A stretch of DNA of 26,325 bases from a virus, in the IMG/VR virus record IMGVR_UViG_3300005548_000375, positions 1-26,325 of that record. One strand, given 5' to 3'. This document shows, piece by piece, positions 2,967-26,311 of this stretch. The notes beneath the pieces are model-generated. The model did not search any database. It saw nothing but the letters and a program-made list of their open reading frames with translations, and was not told where the DNA came from. Position 1 is the first letter of the stretch; the number at the start of each line of letters is the position of its first letter. The position numbers were made by a program, and so were the translations under genes.

Positions 2967-5678
2967 ATGACACTGAACGCGCCCCCGTACGACATCCGTT
3001 TGTGGATCTACCCCGGCATCGATCCGGTCGGAGTGTGGCCGCCCACCTACACAGACATCTCGAACTACGTCCGCTATCCAGGCAACGATGGCGGCCAGCC
3101 CATCACCTACTCGGCGGGCCGCCAGAACGAGGCGGACCAGGTGGACGCGGGAACGCTGAACCTCACCCTGGACAACAGGGATGGCCGGTTCAGCACTCAC
3201 AACCCGTTGAGCCCCTACTACCCCTCGCTCGATCGAGGGTGCCCTATCCGGCTGGCCATGACCTCTTGCCGAGACAGCTTCAACCGGACCACCTCGGGGA
3301 ACCTGGGCACCTCGGACACGGAGAACACCTGGACCTCATCCGCCGCCTGGAGCACCAATGGCAGCGTGGCCACCTGGTCCGGGGTGAGCACCAACGTGAT
3401 CAGCTTTCCGATCAACAACGGTGGCTCAGCCATTGACGTTGACCAACAGATCACCGTCATCCTGCCGAATGCGGCAACCGGTGACGTTCTCCAGGGAGGC
3501 GTGGTCTGCCGATGGACGGACACCAGCAACCACTGGCGGATCTTCCTGGAGTTCACCACCGGCGGCCGAGTCAACCTCCGGATCGTCAAGATCCTGGCCG
3601 GGGCAACCACCAACGTCTTCACCCAGGATGTGGGTGCCTACACCGCCAACAACGGCTGGCGACTGCACGCGCAGGCCTCGGGCGACACGGTGTATGCCAC
3701 CGCCTGGCCGCTCTCCGGATCGTCCCCCACCACCTGGACGGGAAGCGCCAGTGAGGCCGCTCTGACCGGGCGCAGCACGGGCATGATGACCTTCCGGGGT
3801 GGGACCAACACCAACACCGGCACCTTCGTCACGATGGACGACTACCTGTCCACGGCCCTGGAATGGGCGGGCACGGTCAGCCAGTGGCCGGTGGATTGGG
3901 ACATGTCCGGCAACAATTGCTGGGCATCGATCACCGCGAACGGGATTCTCCGTCGTCTCCAGCAGGGGCGCGGAGAGATCAAATCGGCTCTGACCAGGCA
4001 ATTGCCGGCCTACGGGCCCATGGCCTACTGGCCCCTGGAGGATGATTCCGGGTCCACCAAGTTGGCCAATCTGGTGTCCTCCGGGCCCTCCGCCATCTAC
4101 GCGGGCGCGGTCGCGGTGGCCGGGGACGATGGTCCGGCTGGCGGTGGTCCGTCGATCAAGTTGACTGATGCCACGGGCCAGGTGTGGGGGAAGTTCCGGA
4201 CCGGGGTCCTGCCGTCCGGCGTGCACGGCGGAAGCGCCCTGGTGTTCACCAAGTTCGATTCCCTTCCTGCCTCGGACGTAGTGGTGATCAACTGGGACTC
4301 CACCGGGGCGGCCACTTCCTGGCGGTGGATCGTCGGGGCCACCGGCGTGACCATCCAAGCCGTGGCCTCGGACGGGACGATCCTGTCCACGAACTCGGGC
4401 CTGTTCGCCATAGACCCCACCGAATGGGTGGCATGGCAACTTGAGACCGACGTGGTGGGAGCCAACACGGAGTGGGCCTTCATCTGGCACCAGGTGGGCG
4501 CAGTCGACTACCTGGCCATCACAGGATCCCACGTGAGCACCACGGACACCCGGTTCACCGGCATGTCCATCAACCCCTCCAAGGCAACCCCGGCTGGCCT
4601 GTCCGTCGCTCACGTTTGGATCGGGCCGAACACGCTGCCCTTTGTGGCCGACAGCTTCAGCTTGGTCAGCTCGGGATACGCCACCGAGTTGGCCTCGGAC
4701 CGGGCCGCCCGGATGGCGGGGGAGGAGGGGATCCCGCTCATCGTGGAGCCAGGAGACTCGGTCCCCATGGGCTCCCAGCCCCTGGCCGGAATCGTGCCTG
4801 CGCTTCAGCAGTGCCAGGATGCAGACCAGGGGATCTTGTACGAGCGGGACAACGGGCTCGGCTTCCGGCCGCACGAGGCCCGCTTCAACCAGCCCGTGAC
4901 GCTCTCCCTCACCGTCTCGGCCGGACACCTGTCCGGCCCGCCGAGGGCCATCAATGATGATCAGCGGTTGCGCAACAAGTGGACCGTGACGCGGATCGGT
5001 GGCTCCAGCGCGGTGGCGCAGGACGATGGATCGATCGTCATGAACGGCACCTACGATGACACGGCCTCGGTCAACCTCTACTCGGATGATCAGCTCGGGG
5101 ACCATGCTGGCTGGCGTCTGTTCCTCGGCACCTATCCAGCCCTGAGGTGGCCACAGATCACCCTGGACATCTCCCGCATCCCCGGCGCGGCTCAGATCTG
5201 GCGGGGGCGTCGATACGGTTTCCGGATGACGGTGGACACGGGACGAATCCAGGTCATCGGCAACGATCCGGATGTGATCGTGGAGGGCTACCAGGGCACC
5301 CTGTGGCCGCATCGCTGGTACGTGCAGATGAATTGCTCCAGCGCCACGGCATGGGATCAGAGCCTGTTGGACGACTCAGGCCTACGCCTGGACTGCGACG
5401 GCTCCACCGTGGCCGTGGCGGCCGACGACAATGATGTGACGATCACCGTCACCAACGGTGGGGACCCCTATTCGACCTGGGTCCCCACCTCCACCTATCC
5501 GTCCGAGGTGCCCTTTGACCTCAACATCAACGGTGAGATCATGACGGTCATCAACGTGGGGGACCTCAGTGGCAACCAACAGGTGTTGACCGTGACGCGC
5601 GGGGTGAACGGCGCGGCCAAGGCTCACGTGGTGGGTGAACAGGTTCACCTGGCAATTACCACTGAAGTAACGTTCTGA
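2967..5678 (+). CDS. large minor tail protein with lectin-like domains
   Basis: This 903-aa protein follows the tape measure by 7 nt. The N-terminus (about residues 1-95) has the typical actinophage minor-tail pattern, including 'LTLDNRDGRFSTHNPLSPYY' and a 'GCPIRL' segment. Two all-beta segments resemble concanavalin A/LamG-type folds: about 98-300 and about 350-540, the latter opening with 'YGPMAYWPLEDDSGSTKLAN'. The C-terminal part (about 560-903) looks like a baseplate/hub domain. It probably forms or decorates the tail tip and may bind cell-surface sugar; binding is inferred from the lectin-like segments. No peptidase motif was seen. The start is ATG 2967; the SD is weak, so translation may be coupled to the tape measure stop. 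Confidence 0.88.
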   Translation: MTLNAPPYDIRLWIYPGIDPVGVWPPTYTDISNYVRYPGNDGGQPITYSAGRQNEADQVDAGTLNLTLDNRDGRFSTHNPLSPYYPSLDRGCPIRLAMTSCRDSFNRTTSGNLGTSDTENTWTSSAAWSTNGSVATWSGVSTNVISFPINNGGSAIDVDQQITVILPNAATGDVLQGGVVCRWTDTSNHWRIFLEFTTGGRVNLRIVKILAGATTNVFTQDVGAYTANNGWRLHAQASGDTVYATAWPLSGSSPTTWTGSASEAALTGRSTGMMTFRGGTNTNTGTFVTMDDYLSTALEWAGTVSQWPVDWDMSGNNCWASITANGILRRLQQGRGEIKSALTRQLPAYGPMAYWPLEDDSGSTKLANLVSSGPSAIYAGAVAVAGDDGPAGGGPSIKLTDATGQVWGKFRTGVLPSGVHGGSALVFTKFDSLPASDVVVINWDSTGAATSWRWIVGATGVTIQAVASDGTILSTNSGLFAIDPTEWVAWQLETDVVGANTEWAFIWHQVGAVDYLAITGSHVSTTDTRFTGMSINPSKATPAGLSVAHVWIGPNTLPFVADSFSLVSSGYATELASDRAARMAGEEGIPLIVEPGDSVPMGSQPLAGIVPALQQCQDADQGILYERDNGLGFRPHEARFNQPVTLSLTVSAGHLSGPPRAINDDQRLRNKWTVTRIGGSSAVAQDDGSIVMNGTYDDTASVNLYSDDQLGDHAGWRLFLGTYPALRWPQITLDISRIPGAAQIWRGRRYGFRMTVDTGRIQVIGNDPDVIVEGYQGTLWPHRWYVQMNCSSATAWDQSLLDDSGLRLDCDGSTVAVAADDNDVTITVTNGGDPYSTWVPTSTYPSEVPFDLNINGEIMTVINVGDLSGNQQVLTVTRGVNGAAKAHVVGEQVHLAITTEVTF

Positions 5679-22234: not shown

Positions 22235-22256
22235 ACTGTCTGCTATTGTAGACGCA
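22235..22256 (+). promoter_or_regulatory. promoter-operator P8, leaderless
   Basis: The only copy facing right: GTCTGCTA/TTGTAGAC core, -10 TATTGT (22244-22249), six bases, then ATG 22256. Same geometry as P6. Together with P7 it forms a divergent control point 24 bp apart. Confidence 0.82.
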
Positions 22257-23530
22257 TGACCCATATTCTCAATGGCCAGCAGAGCGAAGCGCTGGCCAAG
22301 ATCCAGAAGTGGTACGAGGAGCAACAGGACTGGGCCAGCGAGCCCTTTCGCCTGTTCGGCTATGCCGGAACCGGCAAGACCACCCTGGCCGCCAGAGTGA
22401 GCGATGCCCTCGGCGTGACTCCCGTTTTCGGGGCCTACACGGGCAAGGCGGCCAAGGTGCTACGGACCAAGGGGGTGGACGCCTCCACCATTCACTCCGC
22501 CATCTACCGGCCGATGGGTACGGCGGAGACCAAGCGCAAGCTGGAGCAGGCTCGCCAAGATCTTTATGACGTGACGCATGACGAGATGCTGTCGGAAAGC
22601 ACCCAGAATCAGATGGTGGCCGAGCTGGAGACCGAGGTGGCCAACCTGGAGCGCGAGGTACGTACGGTCGGCTTCCAGCTCAATCTTGAGTCCGAGTGGG
22701 GCCGGGCTGACCTGATCATCCTGGACGAGGTCTCCATGGTGAACGCCAAGGTGGGCCAGGACATCGAGACCTTCGGGCGGCCCGTGCTCGTACTCGGCGA
22801 CCCGGCCCAGCTCCCCCCGATCGAGGGGGGCGGCTACTACACCAACGCCGAGCCGGACGCCATGCTGACCGAGGTGCAGCGCCAGAAGGCCGACTCGCCC
22901 GTACTGGACCTGGCCACCCGAATCAGGACCGGCGGGCGCGACTTCGGTCTGACCGAGGCCGACCTCAGCAAGGTGAGCCTGGACGAGGCCATGGAAGCGG
23001 ACCAGATCCTGGTCTGGAAGAACTCCACCAGATGGTCGCTCACGCGGTCCATCCGAGAGCGTTTGGGCAGGCCAGGCGGCCGGCCGGTCCCTGGCGACCG
23101 GATCATGTGCCTGACCAACAATGCCTCCCTGGGCATCCTGAACGGCACCCAATACGACGTGTTGGAGGTGGAGCCCGGACAGATCGGCCCGCGTCTGCTG
23201 GTGGTCGAGGTGGACGCGCCCGAGAGTTCGGCCCGCTGGATCAAGGCCTACAACGAGGGCTTCCTGAGCCAGACGGCCGAGCTGAACATGAAGCGCTCGT
23301 TCGGTGCTCACAAGGGAGACCGGGGAGCCTTCACCTTCGCCAACGCCATCACCGTGCACAAGGCCCAGGGCTCGGAGTGGCCCTCGGTCTACGTGGTCGA
23401 TCAGAGCGCCGGGGTGGTGGCCATGGCGGCCCGGGAATCGGGCCCGCGCGCGTCTCTGGAACAGGGCCGACGGTGGCTCTACACTGCGGTAACCCGCGCG
23501 GTTGATCACGTGACCGTGGCGCGCCGGTAA
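22256..23530 (+). CDS. RecD-like SF1 helicase, leaderless start
   Basis: This 424-aa protein has motif I 'GYAGTGKTT' (35-43), motif II 'IILDEVSMV' (154-162), motif III 'LVLGDPAQLPPI' (178-189), and C-terminal 'TVHKAQGSEW' and 'RRWLYTAVTRA' (motifs V and VI). This is the RecD/Dda set. A charged helical insert (about 92-137) lies between motifs Ia and II. It likely unwinds DNA 5'-3' during phage replication. Promoter P8 ends at the ATG. The gene faces away from the replication operon but shares its control region. Confidence 0.93.
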   Translation: MTHILNGQQSEALAKIQKWYEEQQDWASEPFRLFGYAGTGKTTLAARVSDALGVTPVFGAYTGKAAKVLRTKGVDASTIHSAIYRPMGTAETKRKLEQARQDLYDVTHDEMLSESTQNQMVAELETEVANLEREVRTVGFQLNLESEWGRADLIILDEVSMVNAKVGQDIETFGRPVLVLGDPAQLPPIEGGGYYTNAEPDAMLTEVQRQKADSPVLDLATRIRTGGRDFGLTEADLSKVSLDEAMEADQILVWKNSTRWSLTRSIRERLGRPGGRPVPGDRIMCLTNNASLGILNGTQYDVLEVEPGQIGPRLLVVEVDAPESSARWIKAYNEGFLSQTAELNMKRSFGAHKGDRGAFTFANAITVHKAQGSEWPSVYVVDQSAGVVAMAARESGPRASLEQGRRWLYTAVTRAVDHVTVARR

Positions 23531-23546: not shown

Positions 23547-23585
23547 ACAGAAGGCCCCGGGACCACCAACACCGGGGCCTTCTGT
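23547..23585 (+). terminator. hairpin between helicase and primase genes
   Basis: A 14-bp perfect stem (ACAGAAGGCCCCGG/CCGGGGCCTTCTGT) with an 11-nt loop. No T run. No palindromic promoter lies between it and the primase gene, so it may allow some read-through. Confidence 0.75.
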
Positions 23586-23626: not shown

Positions 23627-26173
23627 ATGACGGACCTCTCGCACGACCAGCAAGAGGCACTGCGCATCGCACATGATCTTGTTGACCTGGGTGTTCCCGT
23701 CTTCCCGGCGGCACCGAACAACGGACCGGGCCCCGAGTTCCACTTCCCCAACGCCTGGCCCCAGTGGCGGCCCAACCACTCGGCCGTGGACCGCTGGCGG
23801 CCGGGCTGGGCACTGTGCGCCGTCACCGGCGTGGTCTTCGATGTGATCGACGTGGACCCCCGCAACGGGGGCAACAACGGATGGGGGGAGCTGTCCAAGG
23901 CAGGAGCCGTGCCCGACATCTACGGGGAGGCGTTCACCCCGTCCGAGGGACGGCACCTGTTCATCGCTCGCACCCACCTGGCCAAGGGCAAGCCTGCCGA
24001 GGGGATCGATCTCCAGGCCGGGGAGGACAACGGCAACGGCCGAGGGTTCGTCTACATCGCCCCCACGGTCCGGGTGGCCAAGTTCGGCGCGTGGATGGGC
24101 AAGGCCGTGCCGTACGAGTGGGATCGGGTGCCCAAGTTCGTCCCGGGCACGCACCTGGACGAGGGCCTGGAACGGCTGCACGAGATCCTGACTGCCAGTC
24201 GGCCGGTTGCCCGCCTGACCTCACCCCGGCCCGCCAGCACGTCGCACAGCGACGACTGGGACCTGGTGGGGGACTGGACCACCCCGGCGGCCCAGAAGGC
24301 CGTAGAGGGGCAACTGGAGGCCGTCCGGGCGGCACGCCCGGGTGAGGTCAACTCCGCGCTTGGCGGGGCAGCCAGGGTGCTCGGCCGGTTCGTGGCCGGG
24401 GGCTGGCTGGCCGAGGAGGAGGCGGTGGCCAGTCTGATGGCCGCGCTGGAGGCCGGGGGCGTGCACTCGGACGACTGGAACATGGCCAACCGGAAGGACT
24501 GGACGGCGGCCAGCGTGATCCAGCGGGGGCTGGACGCGGGCCGCGCCGAGCCGTGGACGGTGGACGAGGTGACCGCGCCCGCGCTGGAGGTGGACACCTC
24601 GGTCCGGGTGGACGCGGGCTATCCGCGCTTGCTGGTGGAGTCCCCGGCCACCATGGCCTACTGGCTGGCCCAGGAGGCGGGGCGGGAGCGGCTGTCCGGG
24701 TTCTTCCTCCAGGGCGGCCAGGTGGTGCACACGCCGCGCGTGACCGAGCTGGGCTACGTGCCCGCGCCGGATGGGGACAACGGGCCGGTGGAGATCCGGC
24801 CGGTCTCGGGCCGGATGATGGCCAGCAAGATCCAGTTTCTGTACTCGTGCTACAAGATCCAGAAGGTCAAGGGCCAGGACGACATGGAGGTCCCGGCCAT
24901 GTTCCCGATCTCGGCGGCCGAGGCTGTGGTGAACGCGCCCGAGGCGGCCACCGGCCTGCGCCCGCTGAAGGGCATCACGCTCACCCCGATGGTCCGCGCG
25001 GACGGCACGATCCTGGCTGAGCCAGGGTACGACAAGGCATCCGGCTTCCTGTTCGTTCCGGGGCCGGGGGTGGATGTGCCGACGGTGCCCGAGCATCCGA
25101 CCTTGGCCGAGGTGCGCGCGGCCCGGGACCTGTTGTTGGAGATGGTGGAGGGCTTCCCGTTCGCCAGTCAGGATGACCGGGCCAACTACCTGGGTCTGTT
25201 GCTGACCCCGTTGCTGCGGCTGGTCACGCCGCCGAGCTACAAGCTGTTCGGGATCGGGGCGCACCAGCCTGGCTCGGGCAAGAGCCTGCTGGCGCACATC
25301 GCGGCCACCATCCATGGCGCGGTCACCCGATCGGAGGTGCCGGTGGAGGAGGCCGAGTGGTCCAAGCTGACCATGAGCCTGCTGGCCACCACCTCGGCCC
25401 CGGTGGTGGTGATGGACAACCTGACGGGGATCCTGCGCTCCAGCGTGCTGGCCGGTCTGCTCACCTCGTCCGGCGAGATCCAGGATCGGGAGCTGGGTAG
25501 CTCCCGCATGATCACCACCACCAACGATCGGGTGTGGGTGGTGACGGGCAACAACCTGTCCTTGGGCGGGGACATGGTCCGACGGACCATCACCATCCTG
25601 ATCGACCCGGACATGGCCAACCCCGAGACCCGGACGAATTTCAAGATCAAGGATCTGCCGGCCTGGGTCAAGATCAACCGCAATCGCCTGATTCATGCCC
25701 TTCTGGTGCTCGTGCGGTACTGGGTGGCCCAGGGCATGGTGATGGAGGCGCGCGCCCAGTCCGACGGCTTCGCCACATGGGAGAGCGCGGTGGGCGGCAT
25801 CCTGGCGGCGGCGGGGATCGGTGGGCGCTTCGACGCCGAGAGCGGGAAGCGCGCGTCCGCCGGTGGGGACGATGACGGGTTGGCGAGCGTGCTGGAGCGC
25901 ATGTACGAGCGCCGGGGTGACGCGCCGTGGACCGTGGCTCAGGCCTTGGAGCCGGACGGGGACGAGTGGATGGAAGCGGACCGGGACTGGCTGCCTGGTC
26001 CCGTGCTGGACAAGCTCTCGCGCAACGGGGAGGCCCGGGGCAAGCAAGCGTTCGGGAAGTGGCTCAGGTTCCGGATCGGGCGCTGGGTCACGGGCTCGGA
26101 CGGGCAGGCCTACGTGCTTCGTGCGGACGCCTTGGTGCATCGGATCCAGACCTGGCGGGTGGAGACGCGCTGA
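23627..26173 (+). CDS. primase-polymerase with C-terminal ATPase domain
   Basis: ATG 23627 has AGGAGG 9 nt upstream. The 848-aa protein starts with a bifunctional primase/polymerase (AEP) domain: 'FDVIDVDPRNGG' (71-82, catalytic Asp75/Asp77), 'EGRHLFIA' (107-114, His110) and 'GIDLQAGE...FVYIAPT' (126-147, Asp128). The middle is a helical linker. The C-terminal half has a P-loop 'GAHQPGSGKSLL' (about 544-555), 'VVVMDNLTGI' (about 595) and 'RMITTTNDRVWVVTGNN' (about 630), an ATPase used as replicative helicase in phage and plasmid primase fusions. It should start and drive DNA replication. The candidate origin follows its stop directly. Confidence 0.9.
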   Translation: MTDLSHDQQEALRIAHDLVDLGVPVFPAAPNNGPGPEFHFPNAWPQWRPNHSAVDRWRPGWALCAVTGVVFDVIDVDPRNGGNNGWGELSKAGAVPDIYGEAFTPSEGRHLFIARTHLAKGKPAEGIDLQAGEDNGNGRGFVYIAPTVRVAKFGAWMGKAVPYEWDRVPKFVPGTHLDEGLERLHEILTASRPVARLTSPRPASTSHSDDWDLVGDWTTPAAQKAVEGQLEAVRAARPGEVNSALGGAARVLGRFVAGGWLAEEEAVASLMAALEAGGVHSDDWNMANRKDWTAASVIQRGLDAGRAEPWTVDEVTAPALEVDTSVRVDAGYPRLLVESPATMAYWLAQEAGRERLSGFFLQGGQVVHTPRVTELGYVPAPDGDNGPVEIRPVSGRMMASKIQFLYSCYKIQKVKGQDDMEVPAMFPISAAEAVVNAPEAATGLRPLKGITLTPMVRADGTILAEPGYDKASGFLFVPGPGVDVPTVPEHPTLAEVRAARDLLLEMVEGFPFASQDDRANYLGLLLTPLLRLVTPPSYKLFGIGAHQPGSGKSLLAHIAATIHGAVTRSEVPVEEAEWSKLTMSLLATTSAPVVVMDNLTGILRSSVLAGLLTSSGEIQDRELGSSRMITTTNDRVWVVTGNNLSLGGDMVRRTITILIDPDMANPETRTNFKIKDLPAWVKINRNRLIHALLVLVRYWVAQGMVMEARAQSDGFATWESAVGGILAAAGIGGRFDAESGKRASAGGDDDGLASVLERMYERRGDAPWTVAQALEPDGDEWMEADRDWLPGPVLDKLSRNGEARGKQAFGKWLRFRIGRWVTGSDGQAYVLRADALVHRIQTWRVETR

Positions 26174-26176
26174 GTC

Positions 26177-26311
26177 GGGGGGAGTGACGGGAGTGGGGGG
26201 AGTTGTAGCCACCCATACGTAGATGAATTATATATCCTACTAGTAGACTAGTATTAAAAAGTGACTCGCGTAGGGTACTCCCCCACTCCCCCTACTCCCC
26301 CCACTCCCCCC
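26177..26311. other. candidate replication origin: inverted iterons around an AT-rich core
   Basis: Left: three contiguous 9-mers GGGGGGAGT, GACGGGAGT, GGGGGGAGT (26177-26203). Right: ACTCCCCC (26277), ACTCCCCCT (26285), ACTCCCCCC (26294), ACTCCCCCC (26303-26311), the reverse complement of the left unit. Between them about 70 bp is AT-rich (TATATA, TATTAAAAA) with a palindrome TACTAGT-AG-ACTAGTA (26238-26253). Such AT-rich DNA is very rare in this window. It lies 4 bp after the primase stop. The structure fits iteron-type origins; the G tracts could also form quadruplexes. Confidence 0.65.

Follow-up and report, generated by a model that had tools for sequence, protein, structure and literature searches.

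The stretch of DNA analysed here (the window) covers an entire viral record, which has 26,325 bases and is classed as linear, and it closes with a replication module. An SF1 (Dda/RecD-like) helicase gene (22256-23530, plus strand) is the neighbour of the last gene of the contig (23627-26173, plus strand), which encodes a putative initiator with a PrimPol domain, a D5/SF3-type AAA+ helicase and a C-terminal winged-helix-like domain. Three nucleotides past the TGA stop codon of this gene (26171-26173) begins a 135-nt element (26177-26311), and the contig ends 14 nt beyond it. The left arm of the element (26177-26203, plus strand) reads GGGGGGAGT / GACGGGAGT / GGGGGGAGT with a 9-bp period, that is, two exact 9-mers and a degenerate middle unit. 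The right arm (26277-26311, minus strand) is composed of four reverse-complement units with 8- and 9-bp spacing, which on their own strand read GGGGGGAGT / GGGGGGAGT / AGGGGGAGT / GGGGGAGT: two exact 9-mers, one with a change in its first base and one 8-mer. The count of three plus four 9-mer copies given in a preliminary description is therefore correct if degenerate units are included, and falls to two plus two for exact 9-mers.

Several measures set this element apart from the rest of the window. The GGGGGAGT octamer occurs six times, always inside the 135-nt element, with about 2.5 occurrences expected across the whole 26 kb, and it is the clustering that is striking, not the number. The two arms pair across 27 nt at 89%, and the best inverted-repeat score is 18; 20 shuffles scored no higher than 9, and 44 further 300-nt segments from the window no higher than 11. 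As a single strand, the element folds at -31 kcal/mol (z = -4.5), which none of 200 shuffles equalled. Between the arms lies a 73-nt core (26204-26276), a putative unwinding region that is 62% AT in a contig that is 65% GC. As had been claimed, it is the most AT-rich part of the window, since the maxima for 40-, 60- and 80-nt stretches all fall there. The core contains the previously noted palindrome, a TACTAGT-AG-ACTAGTA dyad (26238-26253), as well as the word CGCGTAG (26267-26273, plus strand), which is the core word most widely common to the relatives, on either strand.

The predicted initiator protein

Translation from the ATG at 23627 (MTDLS), a start that agrees with the relatives, yields a protein of 848 residues; a TTG at 23585 is also open and would give 862. 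PrimPol occupies approximately residues 8-193, the D5/SF3-type AAA+ helicase 332-747 and the winged-helix-like domain 752-848. Pfam returned no match for the window's own protein, PF09250 (Prim-Pol) was found in three of five close relatives, and the protein matches PHROG 19930 (DNA polymerase/primase). A search of solved structures by sequence gave chance matches only. In the predicted structure (mean pLDDT 73), residues 8-193 fold like the PrimPol of pRN1 ORF904 (3m1m, Z 12.1), while the best match for residues 332-747 is the SaPI5 primase-helicase (7ola, Z 9.1), with vaccinia D5 at Z 8.8. As for the C-terminal 113 residues, which we modelled alone (pLDDT 82), they form helices followed by a β wing. 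The structural matches to this C-terminal model, many of them winged helices, have Z scores no higher than 6.1, which is low, and a Foldseek search with it found no significant match. The models thus indicate a primase-polymerase and an SF3-type helicase joined in one chain to what is probably a DNA-binding winged helix. The wing is the least conserved stretch that we measured, with a mean identity of 51% versus 71% for the ATPase. From this variability alone we make no claim that it determines specificity, as the PrimPol domain and the linker are also variable.

Geometry and repeat sequence across relatives

We searched viral and genome contigs with the initiator or its alignment and obtained 27 viral relatives, with a few more added later; their loci are numbered L002 onward. 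At 22 loci (window included), we took the 300 nt that follow the gene (for the window, 152 nt) and asked for an inverted-repeat pair stronger than any found in 20 shuffles or in the control segments from its own locus. Such a pair was found at 16 of them, namely in the window, L002, L003, L004, L005, L008, L009, L010, L011, L013, L015, L017, L018, L019, L020 and L026. All ten tested relatives whose protein is at least 47% identical have the pair around a core just 3' of the gene. The preliminary description would have abandoned its reading had the element been absent from relatives with the same primase; instead, 15 of the 21 tested relatives have an inverted-repeat pair after the gene. The 300 nt after the gene hold no such pair in L014, L022, L023, L028, L029 and L031, so more distant homologues appear to place or build their origin differently. 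In L029, GGGGAGT units are present but spread across a longer region, and the origins of the other five may lie elsewhere. In L014, GTGGGGCACCG repeats are seen near the end of the gene.

The group includes relatives of 42-45 kb. Because initiator homologues are found in Nocardioides and Streptomyces, the host is likely to be an actinobacterium. In L002, a 202-aa gene comes next after the element and is preceded by a promoter-like TGCTATAGT; GTGCTATAGT precedes the gene beyond the putative origin in L002, L005 and L010. We also followed up the suggested GC-skew analysis. In five of the six long relatives, the cumulative curve reaches its lowest point 3-6 kb upstream of the element, close to where the G-rich primase gene begins; the sixth departs from this pattern. 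This signal is weak and not decisive: its amplitude is small, and the skew is shaped by the G-rich primase gene. It is no more than compatible with an origin at the element.

The sequence of the arm unit changes from relative to relative. It is GGGGGGAGT in L002, CGGGGGTTT in L005, GTGACAA in L003, CCTGACAAC in L013, GGTGGACC in L004, GGGGAAGT in L017, TGCAGGAGA in L019 and TGCTGAGTC in L026. The weight that had been placed on the G-tracts is not supported: they are common to the nearest relative, not to the family. Judged by sequence comparison, the G-tract is not conserved, and what is kept is the position, the 9-bp repeat period, the opposed arms, a core of 40-100 nt and, often, CGCGTAG. 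The same comparison bears on the idea that G-quadruplexes formed by the G-tracts are the functional element. The left arm does have G runs of 6, 3 and 6, and L002 has three runs of six G, but G-tracts are missing in L003, L004, L010, L011, L013, L019 and L026, all of which keep the layout. With so many relatives lacking G-tracts, we rejected the G-quadruplex as a common feature, and as an explanation of the element we consider that it has next to no chance of being correct.

The constancy of the geometry can be quantified. Over 15 elements, the mean self-match of the arms is 0.68 at lag 9, and no other lag from 5 to 13 exceeds 0.41 (the value at lag 8). The best lag is 7 or 8 in L003, L013 and L018, and no clear lag is seen in L008 and L009. 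Element lengths are about 95-175 nt, mostly 105-155. Of 17 cores, 7 contain CGCGTAG as an exact word on one strand or the other, whereas no 7-mer occurred in more than five cores in 500 shuffles, which preserve base composition only, some of the loci being moreover related. A looser dyad, TCCTA...TAGGA, is found in the cores of L002, L011 and L013.

The relationship between the two arms is also informative. In L003, L005, L010 and L013, mirror symmetry extends past the repeat units or also holds for the order of unlike units, a pattern suggesting pairing of the arms or copying of one from the other. The arms are imperfect mirrors in the window, L026 and the Streptomyces plasmid pWTY27 (described below), and strict pairing is thus not universal. 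Between L011 and L013, the gene ends are 91% identical and the downstream stretches 90%, with only 76% for the 200 nt that include the element, which would mean that in this pair the element changes more quickly than the sequence on either side. For the window and L002, the difference is small (80% and 76%). When we inspected the C-terminal alignment by eye, we saw no link between repeat sequence and the residues of the recognition helix; L005 and L015 have nearly the same repeats and distant proteins.

A tentative and somewhat doubtful proposal is that these elements form a class of origins, of phages and plasmids alike, in which mainly geometry is selected, that is, a 9-bp step, mirrored arms and a limited core with CGCGTAG. 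The recognition sequence might then be freely replaced in the two arms at once, one arm being copied onto the other while they form a hairpin or cruciform, with the C-terminal domain of the initiator following. Turnover of the repeat sequence under a fixed geometry is the less expected, and the interesting, part of our results. We did not find the 9-bp step, this turnover or the core word across relatives described in the literature on pWTY27, pRN1 and PICI origins.

Known origins and the probable function of the element

A plasmid search identified RepA of Streptomyces pWTY27 (NC_013667), which is 37% identical over residues 461-834 and aligns as far as the C-terminal end of the initiator. 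Both proteins match the same PHROGs (19930, 10537 and 29234). When viral contigs were searched with pWTY27 RepA as the only query, nothing matched. Replication of pWTY27 needs repA, repB and a 300-bp non-coding region directly after repA; RepA footprints an inverted repeat of about 105 bp made of 7-8 bp direct repeats, leaving the loop free; and the replicon propagates in linear form when telomeres are added, which was read as bidirectional replication (PMC3583192). The region 3' of repA has the same place and the same build as the element in the window, and this is also true of the Streptomyces plasmid NZ_CP108626. The two systems have in common a homologous ATPase with the same C-terminal domain, a PrimPol partner, a non-coding origin (putative in the phage) right after the ATPase gene and direct repeats that form a long inverted repeat around a core. 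They differ in that PrimPol (RepB) and ATPase (RepA) are two genes in pWTY27 and fused in the window. They also differ in that pWTY27 is conjugative and a plasmid, in its repeats (GTGGGAAC, with further repeats outside IR2) and in its core, which is less AT-rich. The earlier claim of an origin recognised by the adjacent primase-ATPase is supported by this comparison, because the region bound and required by a homologous initiator matches the element in layout and location (PMC3583192).

A few further observations concern the surroundings of these elements. Extra or nested inverted repeats of the main-pair unit are seen beyond the main pair in L020 (7407-7760) and L008 (8708-8902), and L008 has an inverted CAGGTCAG pair outside its inner arms. 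In pWTY27 and NZ_CP108626, CTGACCTG/CAGGTCAG flank the elements in the orientation opposite to that in L008. A gene annotated as a phage major capsid protein lies beside the PrimPol replicon of pWTY27 (L034, 10642-12102), a possible trace of exchange between phage and plasmid.

Two other systems share the layout. In Sulfolobus pRN1, the origin is a 100-nt stem-loop that directly follows the PrimPol-helicase gene and is both necessary and sufficient for this function; one stem mutation was tolerated only once symmetry had been restored, and a stem-loop origin has also been proposed for phage BIP-1 (PMC4234260). As in the window, PrimPol and an SF3-type helicase are parts of a single protein, and the roughly 100-nt stem-loop lies just downstream, with the layout kept and the sequence varying. 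The pRN1 protein also has a C-terminal winged helix, whose probable counterpart in the window is modelled with matches of low Z score. In contrast to the window, pRN1 has been described with a stem-loop and no tandem iterons, its host is archaeal and the relationship of the proteins is by fold only. In PICIs, the origin lies just 3' of rep and consists of two iteron sets around an AT-rich region (PMC6092414), an arrangement that the window shares. The proteins are also alike, with a D5/SF3-type helicase carrying a C-terminal origin-binding domain (SaPI Rep and SCCmec Cch2; PMC7581432), putative in the window. However, PICIs are satellites, whereas the window carries tape-measure-like and other tail-type genes and has relatives of 42-45 kb. 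PMC6092414 and PMC7581432 do not describe long mirrored arms for PICIs. The preliminary description, which knew of no actinophage origin with such a layout, is thus answered in part: the layout itself is known from pWTY27, pRN1 and PICIs.

One alternative is that the inverted repeat does no more than terminate transcription of the primase operon or form the 3'-end structure of its mRNA. The element starts 3 nt past the stop codon and folds well, and no second hairpin resembling a terminator is present there in the window. Nor does the terminator that in pRN1 sits between gene and stem-loop have a counterpart in the window, L002 or L004. Nevertheless, a separate short hairpin lies between the stop codon and the left arm in L008, L009, L010, L011, L013 and L017, as well as beside the stop in pWTY27, which makes a terminator function for the element itself very unlikely. 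Tandem units in both arms, together with a loop of about 70 nt, are also foreign to terminators, and in pRN1 the terminator is dispensable, unlike the long stem-loop (PMC4234260).

Instead of starting replication, the arms might serve as an operator or as a partition (parS-like) site to which the primase or a different phage protein binds. Iterons often act in copy control and autoregulation. Tandem repeats occur at phage parS sites too (PMC7157519). Against this, the element lies downstream of the gene, away from its promoter, the window proteins that we scanned (a subset of its genes) include no ParA or ParB, and the homologous pWTY27 region is needed for replication itself (PMC3583192). We therefore regard this explanation as improbable; an operator or partition function is possible as a second role of the element.

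A long hairpin could also be a rolling-circle double-strand origin nicked by another protein, and rolling-circle replication was proposed for pRN1 by Joshua et al. in 2013 (as reported in PMC4234260). Our protein-family scans, covering a subset of the window genes, revealed no nicking-type Rep; the protein at hand is a PrimPol with an SF3-type helicase; and pWTY27 can be propagated as a linear replicon with telomeres, which was interpreted as bidirectional replication (PMC3583192). A rolling-circle origin is hence extremely unlikely.

We conclude that the element is very probably a phage replication origin, recognised by the protein encoded immediately upstream, which joins PrimPol, SF3 helicase and a probable winged helix, with bidirectional theta-type replication from opposed iterons. 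The strongest support for this reading comes from pWTY27, where the region of the same layout directly 3' of the homologous initiator is the replication locus. The kind of origin is already known, having been mapped experimentally in that Streptomyces plasmid with a related initiator. As for mechanism, we infer that the probable winged helix at the C-terminus would bind the 9-bp units of both opposed arms and so load helicase assemblies that flank the AT-rich core and face opposite ways, a step that a hairpin or cruciform formed by the arms may assist. Once the core had melted, the fused PrimPol domain would lay the first primers for bidirectional theta-type replication, with CGCGTAG perhaps having a role in, for example, priming or melting. 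Hairpin pairing is favoured by the perfect mirrors of some relatives, double-stranded iterons by the window, whose arms match imperfectly and differ in their number of units.

These findings would place an origin in the style of pWTY27, pRN1 and PICIs in tailed phages of about 42-45 kb that are probably actinobacterial. They also supply a naturally occurring set of initiator-origin pairs that differ in repeat sequence and agree in geometry. What gives a PrimPol-SF3 initiator its specificity, and whether it recognises iterons or a folded hairpin, could be tested by swapping arms and C-terminal domains, and small replicons for actinobacterial vectors are a possible yield.

Other features of the window

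Elsewhere in the window, CTGCTATAGT occurs six times on the minus strand (14843, 15371, 15899, 16281, 16485 and 22197), with 0.23 occurrences expected. At all six sites it sits within the near-palindrome TCTGCTATAGTAGA, and at three of them TTGACA is found 16-20 nt upstream of TATAGT. Going by these motifs, the six sites look like a promoter family overlapped by an operator. Finally, a gene at 2967-5678, after the tape-measure-like gene, encodes a 903-aa protein that matches phrog_5313, a family of unknown function (E 6e-136).
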